A stretch of DNA of 52,121 nt, taken from NCBI GenBank assembly GCA_021796415.1, contig JAJYJC010000005.1, positions 1 to 52,121 on the forward strand. The letters are read 5' to 3'. This DNA comes from a bacterium (GTDB lineage: Bacteria; Patescibacteriota; CPR2; UBA1875; JAJYID01). Positions 12,949 to 22,017 of this stretch are shown here, in pieces. A program made the position numbers and the translations under genes. The notes beneath the pieces are model-generated. The model saw only the letters and a program-made list of their open reading frames with translations. It was not told where the DNA came from and did not search any database. Positions within the stretch are counted from its first letter, which is position 1, and every line of letters starts with the position of its first letter.

Positions 12949-13023
12949 GGCCCGTTCGTCTAGTGGTTAGGACGCCAGGTTTTCATCCTGGTAACAGGGG
13001 TTCGATTCCCCTACGGGCTACCA
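12949..13023 (+). tRNA. tRNA-Glu (anticodon TTC), CCA encoded
   Basis: ggcccgt...acgggct acceptor, ccagg-ttttcat-cctgg anticodon arm, aggggttcgattcccct T-arm, then acca. Confidence 0.95.
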
Positions 13024-14530
13024 ATGAAGATTTCTTGCCATCAAAAGTGGCATTTATACTATAAACAAGCCCTAAACGGGCGGTTCCAAAACCTACATTC
13101 TTTTTATATGAAACTCCCTCAGGAAAGACCAACTTTTGGAACCGAGGTTTTATTTTGTCTGGCATATCAAACCACTGCCTGCCTAAATCATCAATAAAGT
13201 GCATTGCATAGTTCAAAGCCCCCTCAATATCAAGCTGGTCTATTTTAGATTCATTTAATGAAATCTGTTCGGCAACAATTTCGTTATCAACCTCCGCCTT
13301 CCTAGTAAAAAACTCCTCTTTTGTATAAGAGCCATCTTCTCTCATTTCATATAAACGTTTTCTCTTTTTCTCTAGAAGATTTATTGCTTTTTGTATTCTT
13401 GCAGTTTCCGTTTGGTAAGCTTGACCCTTCTCTTGCCAAAAATCTAAGGCAGTTTCTTTGAATAGTTCTAGAAATTCGTTTTTAGGTGTTATAGTTCGGA
13501 GGTGTTTAATAAAATCCGCCTCAATGTCTTTTTTCGGCAATGACTTCCCATACATTGAGCATTCTTTATTATAGCAATGATAGTTAGCATATTTCCCGCC
13601 ATTGCCCCTTGAATAACTGCCCGTTAAAGTGTGCCCACATTCTCCGCAAAGGATAGTTCTTCTTAGAGCAAAGTCGGGATTAAACCTATGTCTTTTGAGT
13701 TTCAATTTTCCGCCACTTTTAAAGTAGGTAATCTTACCCATCTCTTCTTCGCTAATCATCGGTTTGTGCAAACCTCGTCTTTCTTCCTGAGTCCAAGGAT
13801 TTACAATAATGCCTGTATAAAATTTCAGATGTTTGCTTAGCATTTTGTCTACAAACTGCATGGAGGTCTCTTTGCCTCTGATTCTGGCAAGACCCCACTC
13901 GTCAAGTTTGCCAGTTAATTCTTTTTGTGAATATATGCCCTTTGAAAATTCCTTTAATGCCTTTTGAATAATAGGGAAAGATTGCTCGTCTGGCGGGTCT
14001 GGTCGTGTTTTCTTCTCACCATGCTTTTTAGAGTGAAGACATCTATATCCAGTGGGAGCTTTCCATGGATAAATACCTCTGTTGATTTGAGTCATCATTC
14101 CGTCGGTACACTGCCTTTTTCTTATAGCGTTTTCGTATTCTGAAGCTCCTGCAATGATTGTTTCAAAGAATTTACCAGTAGGGGAACTGTCAATCGGTTC
14201 CGTGACAGAGTGGAGAGTCGTGCCGTAATCTATAAGTATTTTTCTGACCGCAAAATGGTCTTCGGTATTTCTAGCAAAGCGGTTTAATCTTAGGACAATG
14301 AAAGCTTCCACATTTCCCTTATTTTTACGGCAATATTCAAGGGCATCTAAGAAAACCTTGCGATTATTCAGGCTTAAATCCTTTGCACTTTCACCTTCTT
14401 CCCGAAAAACAGATACCACTTCGATACCTTTTTCTTGACAATATTTTTTGCATACTTCTTCTTGGAACTCTAAAGATGTGCCTTCAACCTGCTCACCGCT
14501 TGAGACTCTTGTATAAATTATTCCTTTCAA
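12983..14530 (-). CDS. Large serine recombinase (resolvase + recombinase + zinc ribbon); C-terminus reads antisense into tRNA-Glu
   Basis: IIYTRVSSGEQVEGTSLEFQ, VLRLNRFARN, CGECGHTLTGSYSRG zinc ribbon; TTG start at 14530 after aaaggagc. Confidence 0.92.
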   Translation of the reverse strand: MKGIIYTRVSSGEQVEGTSLEFQEEVCKKYCQEKGIEVVSVFREEGESAKDLSLNNRKVFLDALEYCRKNKGNVEAFIVLRLNRFARNTEDHFAVRKILIDYGTTLHSVTEPIDSSPTGKFFETIIAGASEYENAIRKRQCTDGMMTQINRGIYPWKAPTGYRCLHSKKHGEKKTRPDPPDEQSFPIIQKALKEFSKGIYSQKELTGKLDEWGLARIRGKETSMQFVDKMLSKHLKFYTGIIVNPWTQEERRGLHKPMISEEEMGKITYFKSGGKLKLKRHRFNPDFALRRTILCGECGHTLTGSYSRGNGGKYANYHCYNKECSMYGKSLPKKDIEADFIKHLRTITPKNEFLELFKETALDFWQEKGQAYQTETARIQKAINLLEKKRKRLYEMREDGSYTKEEFFTRKAEVDNEIVAEQISLNESKIDQLDIEGALNYAMHFIDDLGRQWFDMPDKIKPRFQKLVFPEGVSYKKNVGFGTARLGLVYSINATFDGKKSSLVARRGIEPLLPG

Positions 14531-14550
14531 CTCGGCTCCTTTCTTTTAAA

Positions 14551-14648
14551 TAAACCAAAGAGGGACAACCCTGCTGTACACAGTTCCTCGCGGATACTGA
14601 ACAGGATTGCCCCTCAAAGGCAAAATCCGCGAAATTGAAACTGTGTAC
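14551..14648 (-). ncRNA. Candidate structured leader RNA, copy B, upstream of serine recombinase
   Basis: P1 gtacacagtt (14639-14648)/aactgtgtac (14576-14585), P2 tcgcggat/atccgcga, apex ttgcct..aggggcaa, 3' agggttgtccct; TATAAT with extended -10 TG at 14655-14660. Confidence 0.65.
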
Positions 14649-14680
14649 AATCTAATTATACCATTCTTGTCAAACTTTTG

Positions 14681-16272: not shown

Positions 16273-17091
16273 TTAGGTCTTTTTTGACGATTTGGAGCGG
16301 TTTTTGACGATTAATCTTTCATAATCAATCTTTGGGAGATTCACTTCACTCTTCATCAGTAGCTTATCTGCCCCACAGACAGGGAAGAAATGAGGCTTTA
16401 ATTTTTTGTCAAACCCTGCCCTTCTAACAACCTCAGATAAATTATTGAGACCTTGTTGGTTGGGGTATGCATTATTTAAATCTTGTTTCGTCACAGTTTG
16501 ATTCAATTTATTATTAACCAAATAATTGAAAAGTAGGTCAGGAGCTAGCCCATCTCTAAGTGTTCTAAATAGGATATTTTGTTCCTTGGTTTGCATAAAT
16601 AATTTAGTCCCATCTTTATAAAGCTTGATGTGTACGGCTTGATGATTATCATTATTGTCACTTGAAAACTTTGGGGGTAATCTCTTAGCAAGAATCTGTC
16701 GTGTGAGCAATAACACGTCGGTATAATCCCAATGGGTGTAGCCAGTGCTATCTACCAGTTTCAAAACAATCGATGTTTTTACATTGTTATTTGCTGGCTC
16801 ATAGTCTCTTATACCAGTACCAATACAGTCGCCACTATATTTCTCAAATGTCATCAATTCAATTATTTGATGAGAGTGTAGCACTCTAATTATTCGCTCG
16901 ATTTCTTGCTGAGGTATTTTGATTTCTGATGCAGTTGGGATGTCAACAAATTCATTTTGAGTTAGTTCATAGGTATCTAGTATGAAACAAACTACTTTTT
17001 GCAAATTGTTAAGTCTGTTTATTGCTTGGATAGAACCAAGCCATTTATTAAGCTCTTTGGTTCTCCTTTGTATGTAACTTTCATTTTTCAT
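16273..17091 (-). CDS. Hypothetical protein with possible winged-helix region; candidate replication initiator/regulator
   Basis: 272 aa; YELTQNEFVDIPTASEIKIPQQEIERIIRVLHSHQIIEL resembles wHTH; sits next to iteron-like repeats. Confidence 0.5.
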   Translation of the reverse strand: MKNESYIQRRTKELNKWLGSIQAINRLNNLQKVVCFILDTYELTQNEFVDIPTASEIKIPQQEIERIIRVLHSHQIIELMTFEKYSGDCIGTGIRDYEPANNNVKTSIVLKLVDSTGYTHWDYTDVLLLTRQILAKRLPPKFSSDNNDNHQAVHIKLYKDGTKLFMQTKEQNILFRTLRDGLAPDLLFNYLVNNKLNQTVTKQDLNNAYPNQQGLNNLSEVVRRAGFDKKLKPHFFPVCGADKLLMKSEVNLPKIDYERLIVKNRSKSSKKT

Positions 17092-17141
17092 AATAATTTT
17101 AATTGTGTGTTGTGTTATGACAACTTAAATACAAAAATACT

Positions 17142-17291
17142 ACCTATTAACACTTTTTAATTGCCCATATTTATTATATTACATTCTCAACCACCTATAA
17201 ACAGATAAAAAAACACCTGTAAACTAGGAAAAATCACACCTATAAACGCATAAAAGTACTGTCTAAACAGAAAATAATCATACCTATTAAC
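17142..17291. repeat. Iteron-like array, core ACCTATAAAC
   Basis: Core copies end at 17151, 17202, 17224, 17247, 17268, 17291; the last five are spaced 21-23 bp. Confidence 0.75.
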
Positions 17292-17378
17292 TAAAAATAA
17301 TTAAAAGCTTAGAATTTAACCTCGTGTGTTGTATAGGGATTATCTTTGTTTTGTCTCGCCATTCCCCCAACGAAGTAA

Positions 17379-17406
17379 TTGCTTTTTATAAGGAAAAAAG
17401 TATAAT
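17379..17406 (+). promoter_or_regulatory. Promoter TTGCTT-16-TATAAT for leader RNA copy A
   Basis: ttgctttttataaggaaaaaagtataat. Confidence 0.6.
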
Positions 17407-17412
17407 ATAAGC

Positions 17413-17540
17413 GTCTAGACTAGCATAGATTGCAAATTCATTCTTCCGAGAGTGATTGCGCCTTATTTTAGGGCAATCACTCGATAAACAGGGCGCAATC
17501 CCTGCTGGTCTAGACACCTAGGGTGGTTGTCCTTTTTGTT
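17413..17540 (+). ncRNA. Candidate structured leader RNA, copy A, upstream of the membrane-protein operon
   Basis: P1 gtctagactagca (17413-17425)/tgctggtctagac (17503-17515), gattgc/gcaatc (17428/17495), gagtgattgc/gcaatcactc (17450/17473), then agggtggttgtccttttt. Confidence 0.65.
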
Positions 17541-17578: not shown

Positions 17579-17806
17579 ATGAATAAGAAAACTATATTAT
17601 TAACGCTAATCATTCTTTTTTTCGGAATAGGTTTGTTCTATTGGTTTCAGATAAGACCAGGCAACATAAAACAACGATGCGATGCACAAGCAAATCAAGG
17701 TCTAAAAGATAACAATTTTGGTGTTAATCCAGGTATTTCCGACCCAGACAATGCTCGTGAATACAATGATTTCTTTCAAAAATGTCTACATGAAAAGGGA
17801 TTATAA
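17579..17806 (+). CDS. Small single-TM protein
   Basis: MNKKTILLTLIILFFGIGLFYWFQI; RBS gaggaaaa upstream; listed ORF starts earlier at 17546. Confidence 0.6.
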   Translation: MNKKTILLTLIILFFGIGLFYWFQIRPGNIKQRCDAQANQGLKDNNFGVNPGISDPDNAREYNDFFQKCLHEKGL

Positions 17807-20214: not shown

Positions 20215-20278
20215 ATGCCTGCATATAGGTATTTTTTTTATGCCCAAAATCTTGACAGCGTAGAGGATTTGAACTTTC
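20215..20278. repeat. Left ~64-bp repeat flanking AbiE module (contains hairpin + T-run)
   Basis: atgcctgcatataggtattttttttatgcccaaaatcttgacagcgtagaggatttgaactttc; matches 21955-22017. Confidence 0.75.
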
Positions 20279-20365: not shown

Positions 20366-21136
20366 ATGGACATGAAAAAGACAATTTTATCGGAAAAAGA
20401 GCTCCAGCTTCTGGAAAGCCTTATTTCAAGCTATGGCTACATAGCTGATTTTAATCAGATCGAAGCCAGGCTTAAGATTAGTCATCAGGCTGTCAGGAAC
20501 CTAGTCGCCAAGCTGGTAAGCAACGGCTGGCTGGTCAGGATCAAGAAAGGCCATTTTGCCATTGCAAATCTAGAATCCCATAGCTTTTCAAATATTTCGC
20601 CTCTGGCGATAGCTCAGGTGCTGATTCCCGGTTCTTATGTTTCATTCGAATATGCCCTGAATTACCACGGTCATTTTGACCAGTTGTCTGCAAAGGTCAC
20701 TTCGGTAACCACTTCGAAAAAAAAGTCTTTTCAATTTCAAGATACAGAATATCTCTTTGTCAAAGCCAAGCCAGAAATGATGGCAGGTTTTAAAGAGATA
20801 ACGATTGAAGGACAGCCCGCCAATGTTGCGACCTTCGAAAAGGCTCTCCTTGATATTCTTCACTTCCGAAAAGACAGCTATACGATTGATCTATTAGTTG
20901 AAAAACTAAAAGAAGCTAGAAACGAGATCGATACAGAAGCTTTGATTCAATTATCAATGGTCTATCCCGTAACATTTAGGAGACGTCTCGGATTCTTGAT
21001 GGATCTAGCCGAGCTGAACAGCGACTTTCTGCAAATGGATCTAAAAGGGACCCCTGGTTTTGCCAAGCTGACTAAAAAATCAAATATCTTTAATCCTAAG
21101 TGGAGACTCTACTATGAAGATCGATTTGCTAAGTAG
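20366..21136 (+). CDS. AbiEi-like antitoxin/regulator (type IV TA)
   Basis: N-terminal wHTH, SYVSFEYALNYHG, ATFEKALLDILHFR; overlaps the AbiEii ORF. Confidence 0.85.
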   Translation: MDMKKTILSEKELQLLESLISSYGYIADFNQIEARLKISHQAVRNLVAKLVSNGWLVRIKKGHFAIANLESHSFSNISPLAIAQVLIPGSYVSFEYALNYHGHFDQLSAKVTSVTTSKKKSFQFQDTEYLFVKAKPEMMAGFKEITIEGQPANVATFEKALLDILHFRKDSYTIDLLVEKLKEARNEIDTEALIQLSMVYPVTFRRRLGFLMDLAELNSDFLQMDLKGTPGFAKLTKKSNIFNPKWRLYYEDRFAK

Positions 21137-21869
21137 AGCTCAGCTCTCCATTATCAACAAAAACAACTTCCGCTATCCTCTGCAAATCGCGGAGAAGGAT
21201 TATTTTCTTGCCATCGTTTTACAGATTATCTATAGCTCAAAATTAAAGGATTCGCTGGTCTTCAAAGGCGGCACGGCCATCCATCATCTATATCTCGACC
21301 AGTTGCGATTTTCTGAAGACCTTGATTTTCAGACAACCGGCAAGATTACAGAAGATAATTTGCGAGAAGTATTCCAGCCATATGATTTTCTGGAAATAAT
21401 CAAGAGCTACCAGTCTAATTTCACGCTAAAGATTCAGAGGCTGAAATTCACCGGTCCTTTGGGACAAGCAAACTCCATCAAGCTCGACGTTGATTTGACT
21501 CAAGAGCTAATCCTGCCGGCTGAAAACGCAGAATACAGAAATGTTTATGGCGTGCCGGTTTCGGTCAGAGCCATGGCGATCAAGGAAATCTGCGCTGAGA
21601 AAATTCGGGCTGTAAATGAAAGAGCCAGATATCGAGATTTCTATGACCTGGCCATGGTGATGAAAACTAATAGATTCGAACCTAACGATGTTTTGGCAAT
21701 TCTCAAAAAGAAAGAACTCAGAAAACCGCTTAGCAAGGATTCTGTACTAGAAAATCTGGAGATTGCCGAGGAAGCAAAAAAATCTGGAGCTGAGAGCCTG
21801 TATTACAGCAAAGAAATGAGCGAATCAGAGTTGAAGACAAGTTTGAATAGCATTCTATCCTTGATTTAA
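21114..21869 (+). CDS. AbiEii-like nucleotidyltransferase toxin
   Basis: LVFKGGTAIHHLYLDQLRFSEDLDFQT, KEICAEKIRAVNERARYRDFYDLAM. Confidence 0.9.
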   Translation: MKIDLLSRAQLSIINKNNFRYPLQIAEKDYFLAIVLQIIYSSKLKDSLVFKGGTAIHHLYLDQLRFSEDLDFQTTGKITEDNLREVFQPYDFLEIIKSYQSNFTLKIQRLKFTGPLGQANSIKLDVDLTQELILPAENAEYRNVYGVPVSVRAMAIKEICAEKIRAVNERARYRDFYDLAMVMKTNRFEPNDVLAILKKKELRKPLSKDSVLENLEIAEEAKKSGAESLYYSKEMSESELKTSLNSILSLI

Positions 21870-21954: not shown

Positions 21955-22017
21955 ATGCCTTAAATGAGGCATTTTTTTATGCCAAAAAATTAGACAGCAT
22001 AGGGGATTTGAACTTTC
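21955..22017. repeat. Right ~63-bp repeat flanking AbiE module; includes terminator atgccttaaatgaggcattttttt
   Basis: Matches 20215-20278; perfect hairpin plus T7. Confidence 0.78.

Follow-up and report, generated by a model that had tools for sequence, protein, structure and literature searches.

Structured leader RNAs with loop-tail complementarity in integrative elements of Patescibacteria: a candidate transcription attenuator

The window, as the term is used here, is the whole stretch of 52,121 nucleotides that was analysed. It contains two structured leaders on opposite strands: leader B, in front of a large serine recombinase gene, and leader A, in front of a gene for a small protein with a likely membrane segment (Table 1). 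At its 3' end, the recombinase gene is overlapped by a tRNA-Glu gene on the plus strand, which suggests integration at tRNA-Glu; a second copy of the tRNA end was looked for in the window and not found. The TTG start of the recombinase is supported by a relative (locus L133) that has ATG at the same place (MKGIIYTRVSSGEQV). Between the leaders, at 17137-17300, repeated ACCTATAAAC-like units upstream of a minus-strand ORF (16273-17091) look like iterons, and the element, judged from its sequence, may be a plasmid that carries its own replication gene and has integrated. An AbiEi/AbiEii type IV toxin-antitoxin pair (20366-21869) is flanked by 46-nt direct repeats that are 87% alike (20233-20278 and 21972-22017). 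Genes for DUF5659 proteins recur in the window and at two related loci (L117 and L122), and a phage terminase gene near the leader of a further locus (L118) suggests that some carriers may be prophages.

Table 1. Leaders of the window, their predicted arms and the neighboring genes
Feature	Position	Strand	Basis or remark
Large serine recombinase, 515 aa, TTG start	12983-14530	-	Pfam Resolvase (E 8.6e-26), Zn_ribbon_recom; PHROG integrase
tRNA-Glu	12949-13023	+	overlaps 3' end of recombinase gene
Shine-Dalgarno AAAGGAG of recombinase	14536-14542	-	sequence
Leader B: P1-P2 stem, apical-loop arm (2) pairing with tail (5)	14551-14648	-	sequence, fold energy, relatives
B arm (5), tail AGCAGGGTTGTCCCTC, then TTT	14560-14575	-	pairing with arm (2); covariation in B-type set
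B P1 3' arm GGAACTGTGTAC	14576-14587	-	pairs with P1 5' arm
B P2 3' arm ATCCGCGA	14588-14595	-	
B arm (2), apical loop GAGGGGCAATCCTGTT	14600-14615	-	16 bp with tail; covariation in B-type set
B P2 5' arm TCGCGGAT	14625-14632	-	
B P1 5' arm GTACACAGTTTC	14637-14648	-	pairs with 14587-14576
-10 box TATAAT of leader B (extended, tggtataat; TGG ahead)	14655-14660	-	sequence; ends 6 nt before P1
-10 box TATAAT of leader A	17401-17406	+	sequence; 6 nt before P1
Leader A: P1 GTCT..AGAC, arms (1)-(5), U-run	17413-17539	+	sequence, fold energy, homologue alignment
A P1 5' arm	17413-17425	+	pairs with 17503-17515
A arm (1) GATTGCGCCT	17454-17463	+	pairs with (3) or, plus upstream flank, with (2)
A arm (2) AGGGCAATCACTC	17470-17482	+	pairs with tail (pseudoknot) or with (1)
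A arm (3) GGGCGCAATC	17491-17500	+	helix 1:3
A P1 3' arm TGCTGGTCTAGAC	17503-17515	+	pairs with 17413-17425
A arm (4) GACACC, 5' half of local terminator-like hairpin	17513-17518	+	
A arm (5), tail GGGTGGTTGTCCT	17521-17533	+	U-run at 17533-17537
First gene of A unit, 75-aa protein, one likely transmembrane segment (by eye)	17579-17806	+	

All parts that the original prediction had named for leader B (TATAAT, six nucleotides, P1, P2, apex, tail, Shine-Dalgarno sequence and TTG) are present in the sequence, and the promoter-to-P1 distance is, as it had claimed, common to both copies, with the -10 box 6 nt before P1 in each. P1 of leader B comprises 12 bp (14 counting two outer pairs) and P2 comprises 8 bp. 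The apex reads ttgcct..aggggcaatc, and the tail agggttgtccctctttggttt is followed by the Shine-Dalgarno sequence and the TTG start at 14530. The fold reaches -46.8 kcal/mol, compared with -29.9 ± 3.5 in shuffled sequences (z = -4.8; 0 of 200 as good). Overlooked in the original prediction is a 16-bp pairing between the apical loop and the tail, GAGGGGCAAUCCUGUU with AGCAGGGUUGUCCCUC, referred to below as helix 2:5 after its two arms. Leader A also folds better than its shuffles (z = -5.7 for plus 17413-17539) and has a loop-tail pairing of 13 bp, AGGGCAAUCACUC with GGGUGGUUGUCCU; the flanks of this pairing differ between copies A and B, with complementarity kept within each. If stems P1 and P2 stay intact, the predicted loop-tail helix is a pseudoknot. 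Such a pseudoknot would be tight yet may be feasible, with at least 22 stacked base pairs and, by hand estimate, only about 11-17 linker nucleotides; if P1 opened, helix 2:5 would be a plain long-looped hairpin. Leader A contains in addition a weak tail hairpin (-6.1 kcal/mol) formed by arms (4) and (5). Arm (4) reads GACACC in the window and GACAACC in most relatives, and the hairpin is weakened here. Although the AGGG..TTGTCC pattern occurs at 10 sites in the window's own genome, the architecture is found at A and B only.

Relatives of leader B were collected with a descriptor that combines the stem, loop-tail complementarity, a T-rich end and a -10 box, run on collected loci. Sixteen B-type leaders were found in total, and 14 of them lie directly upstream of serine recombinases: the window copy, twelve found by the descriptor (L007, L008, L014, L064, L082, L109, L127, L133, L135, L138, L147 and L156) and one added by reading the sequence (L141). 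The two others, which are B-like, stand before genes for a membrane protein (L130) and an MmeI-type restriction enzyme (L128). In 11 of the 16, as read by eye, the spacing between a -10-like hexamer and P1 is exactly 6 nt, and all 16 tails have at least three consecutive T at, or a few nucleotides from, the helix end. In several leaders (L082, L064 and L014), the Shine-Dalgarno sequence follows the pseudoknot within a few nucleotides. Some members depart from the common form. The leader at L128 (5394-5260, minus strand), before the MmeI-type restriction-modification gene, has an unrelated core (AAATGCGGCTATTTAC/GTAAATAGTCGCATTT), and that at L014 (1419-1553) is reduced, lacking P2 and having a loop-tail helix of 15 bp immediately ahead of the recombinase Shine-Dalgarno sequence.

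A stricter descriptor (P1 of at least 9 bp, a -10-like box, a loop-tail duplex of -20 kcal/mol or better and a T-rich stretch after the tail) returns 29 sites from 468 kb of locus sequence, both window copies included, and a single site from ten dinucleotide-shuffled copies of the same 468 kb together; known members had been used to tune it, and a few of these sites may be chance matches. The expectation that related recombinases carry the leader, raised with the original prediction, holds in part. The leader is present at recombinase relatives of 58% and 56% identity, which are among the closest. The closest relative (59%, L132) has a reduced loop-tail hairpin only, GGGGCGGTTCC-AGAA-GGACCGTCCC, about 50 nt upstream; in this hairpin, two stretches resembling the loop and tail arms are fused, with the G-U wobble retained. 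At relatives of 53% and 40%, no leader was found in the stretch inspected, and many distant recombinases are without one, mostly where an ORF reaches the start or nearly so.

The A-type leaders form the second set. Relatives among 380 genomes of the phylum were first found with a pattern of the conserved core, and a covariance model (R1) was built from window copy A and two relatives from this search. R1 matched 14 of the 380 genomes, one of which (G222, E 0.056) was not accepted, leaving 13. A tail-pattern scan of the genome collection added Saccharibacteria/Saccharimonadia, Berkelbacteria and further metagenome-assembled genomes (MAGs); among the 54 matches to the tail pattern, those with strong R1 scores belong to Patescibacteria or to MAGs without assignment. 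Matches to the same pattern in Bacillus, Clostridia, Bacteroidota and others resemble ordinary terminators and were rejected. Eighteen full members, including window copy A, were aligned with MAFFT without fitting to any structure. In 16 of the 18 (read by eye), a -10-like hexamer lies at a distance of exactly 6 nt upstream of P1, and TTTT follows the tail in all of them (alignment columns 145-148). The constant bases of the leader are mostly paired ones, plus an A-rich linker. The genes that follow A-type leaders mostly encode small proteins, judged by eye to have a likely membrane segment, and Pfam assigns these A-unit genes to DUF4352, DUF805 or SHOCT/DUF4429, or finds no match.

Both types occur together in seven elements (the window, L064, L082, L109, L117, L122 and L127); except in L117, the two are divergent and lie roughly 1-3 kb from each other. 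These arrangements, with A-type leaders in 13 of 380 genomes and B-type leaders at 14 recombinase loci, bear out the earlier proposal of two copies of one RNA family in two divergent units of the same element. At mapped loci, a same-strand ORF begins about 17-130 nt past the tail; that the leaders control both units we infer. Common descent of A and B is supported by their shared architecture and core motif rather than by one alignment: MAFFT produced no joint alignment of A and B, with or without N padding, and R1, built on A-type sequences, did not report leader B of the window, so that no single homology model recovers both.

Compensatory changes, which had been proposed as a check on the pairing, are strongly evident in both types. 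For P1, helix 1:3 and helix 2:5 together, 96.0% of cells in the alignment of 18 A-type leaders are paired, and 78 cells are changed on both sides, compared with 22.5 in shuffles (0 of 500 as high), which ignore kinship; slid controls, which retain kinship, reach 33-43% paired, and at several paired positions from three to five pair types occur. Helix 2:5 alone is paired in 99.1% of cells (25 double-changed cells vs 6.6 in shuffles) and helix 1:3 in 92.7%. A competing set of P1, helix 1:2 and the terminator-like helix 4:5 is paired in 91.1% of cells, and helix 1:2 alone is weaker, at 84.7%. Conservation is stricter for the pseudoknot than for the local terminator: tail column 139 tracks arm (2) without exception and arm (4) with three exceptions. 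The summed energies of the two A-type folds, which include no pseudoknot penalty, differ by about 10 kcal/mol or less in all 18 members and by 4 kcal/mol or less in 14. Among the B-type leaders, of which 13 of 16 were aligned, helix 2:5 is paired in 91.6% of cells, with 35 double-changed cells vs 12.4 in shuffles and at most 55.5% paired in slid controls.

The same alignments point to the strand on which selection acts. Helix 2:5 of the A-type leaders has 37 G-U cells and no A-C cells, and selection therefore acts on the sense-strand RNA, not on a DNA repeat or an antisense transcript. One G-U wobble, within GGGC/GUCC, hardly varies (present in 17 of 18 A-type and 10 of 13 B-type leaders); with this wobble left out, P1, helix 1:3 and helix 2:5 hold 56 G-U and 7 A-C cells.

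Built on features that are observed directly (the helices, their covariation, the sense-strand RNA character, the promoter-like box and the downstream same-strand gene), the preferred reading is that the leaders are a family of cis-acting 5' leader RNAs of Patescibacteria integrative elements, most likely transcription attenuators (probability about 0.45). Transcription would start at the first base of the long stem, in which P1 is stacked on P2 or on helix 1:3, so that the 5' end would be base-paired. The apical loop (2) would then pair with the tail (5) right behind P1 to give a pseudoknot with the U-run directly after it. In the A-type alternative, the tail and (4) would form a small intrinsic terminator, and (2) would pair with (1). 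Folding of the tail at the U-run would set the share of polymerases that continue into the recombinase gene (B) or the membrane-protein operon (A). Termination at the U-run is what we infer, as are the identity of the terminating fold and any switching signal; because both A-type folds place a helix beside the same U-run, the sequence is silent on which of them permits read-through. An attenuator appears to fit best with the paired 5' end, the helix ending at the U-run, the competing A-type folds and the gene just downstream. The B-type leaders, however, have no consistent local terminator hairpin equivalent to 4:5; the T-run of some is no longer than TTT, and there are members whose tail helix reaches into it. 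A wider formulation, which is offered tentatively, is that a self-contained loop-tail pseudoknot switch or a put-like antiterminator sets the expression of the integrase and of a cell-surface operon, each copy being insulated by its own coevolved loop-tail pair.

Several other explanations bear on the same observations. Inverted repeats that act as DNA, for example as recombinase binding or attachment sites, would account for repeats adjoining serine recombinase genes, as the B-type ones do, and attP often lies beside such genes. However, A-type copies precede unrelated membrane-protein genes, the tRNA-Glu gene of the window overlaps the opposite end of the recombinase gene, and G-U cells far exceed A-C cells both in helix 2:5 and over P1, 1:3 and 2:5; this reading is rejected as barely credible. 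A product of a different kind is conceivable, namely that the terminated RNA of about 125 nt is itself a small RNA acting in trans, with the downstream gene read by leakage alone. The promoter, structured body and terminator-like end of the A-type leaders suit such an RNA, and the core GGGCAAUC/GGUUGUCC could also pair between window copies A and B. A closely spaced same-strand ORF nevertheless follows at mapped loci, and in a given genome the flanks of (2) match those of (5) inside the same copy and not in the other (e.g., L060, A-type, vs L135, B-type, of genome G307), which makes a trans-acting role improbable.

The position of the leader at the very start of the transcript could instead serve mRNA stability or translation, in that a blunt 5'-terminal stem and pseudoknot would block 5'-dependent decay or position the ribosome. 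In most members P1 starts at the predicted +1, and the short distance from pseudoknot to Shine-Dalgarno sequence at L082, L064 and L014 is in keeping with this, yet the conserved U-run, the A-type terminator-like hairpin and the conserved competing pairings are left unexplained, and the idea is quite doubtful. Processive antitermination resembling that of HK022 putRNA, in which the folded 5' RNA would bind its own RNA polymerase and make it resist terminators in both units, is also judged unlikely. The layout does match that of putL and putR, two related structured RNAs behind two early promoters of one mobile element (PMC9378689), both leader copies are present in seven elements, and RNA antiterminators are known in Tn916 (canT; PMC11658703) and pLS20 (conAn; PMC8955417). 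The B unit, however, often consists of a single recombinase gene (about 1.1-1.7 kb), for which processivity seems unneeded, and a U-run is part of the leader itself, joined in A by a terminator-like hairpin. Its single stacked stem with a loop-tail helix also differs from the two side-by-side stem-loops of about 70 nt in putRNA (PMC9378689).

Whatever the mechanism, the leaders constitute a well-supported structured RNA family in a phylum whose regulation is almost unexplored. The family is absent from Rfam 15, where the window and 10 relatives gave no relevant match even at lax thresholds, and a search of openly accessible literature found no description of such an RNA. Other searches were also negative: the recombinase-based search for related loci returned nothing in genome or viral collections, A-type tail patterns had no match in viral contigs, the B-type stem pattern matched five viral contigs (with the architecture absent in the three examined), and phage and plasmid records held no leader similarity. 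The leader is a concrete candidate for how Patescibacteria elements restrain integrase expression. With two alternative folds that are both conserved and a strict distance to its promoter, the mechanism lends itself to direct testing in vitro. Searching for the loop-tail helix further offers a way to find such elements once their protein genes have diverged.

Among known regulatory RNAs, the fluoride (crcB) and preQ1-I riboswitches use a loop to pair with the 3' tail, in competition with a terminator-like hairpin. In the leaders, no constant unpaired ligand pocket was seen and no Rfam match was obtained, and the genes that follow them (recombinases, varied membrane proteins and one MmeI-type restriction enzyme) are not metabolic. 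The antisense-controlled attenuators of pT181 and pIP501, which control rep genes via a countertranscript, combine mutually exclusive leader arms with a terminator, and the A-type leader likewise has mutually exclusive arms and a terminator-like hairpin. HK022 putRNA, from a lambdoid phage of Escherichia coli, is about 70 nt long with two stem-loops; put acts as nascent RNA, and its two related copies at two early promoters of one mobile element recall leaders A and B, but no loop-tail pseudoknot is mentioned (PMC9378689). Compared by description, canT of Tn916 and conAn of pLS20 are, like the leaders, mobile-element RNAs near the transcript start, and they govern terminator read-through; they differ as processive antiterminators of long conjugation operons, and conAn needs a protein (PMC11658703, PMC8955417).
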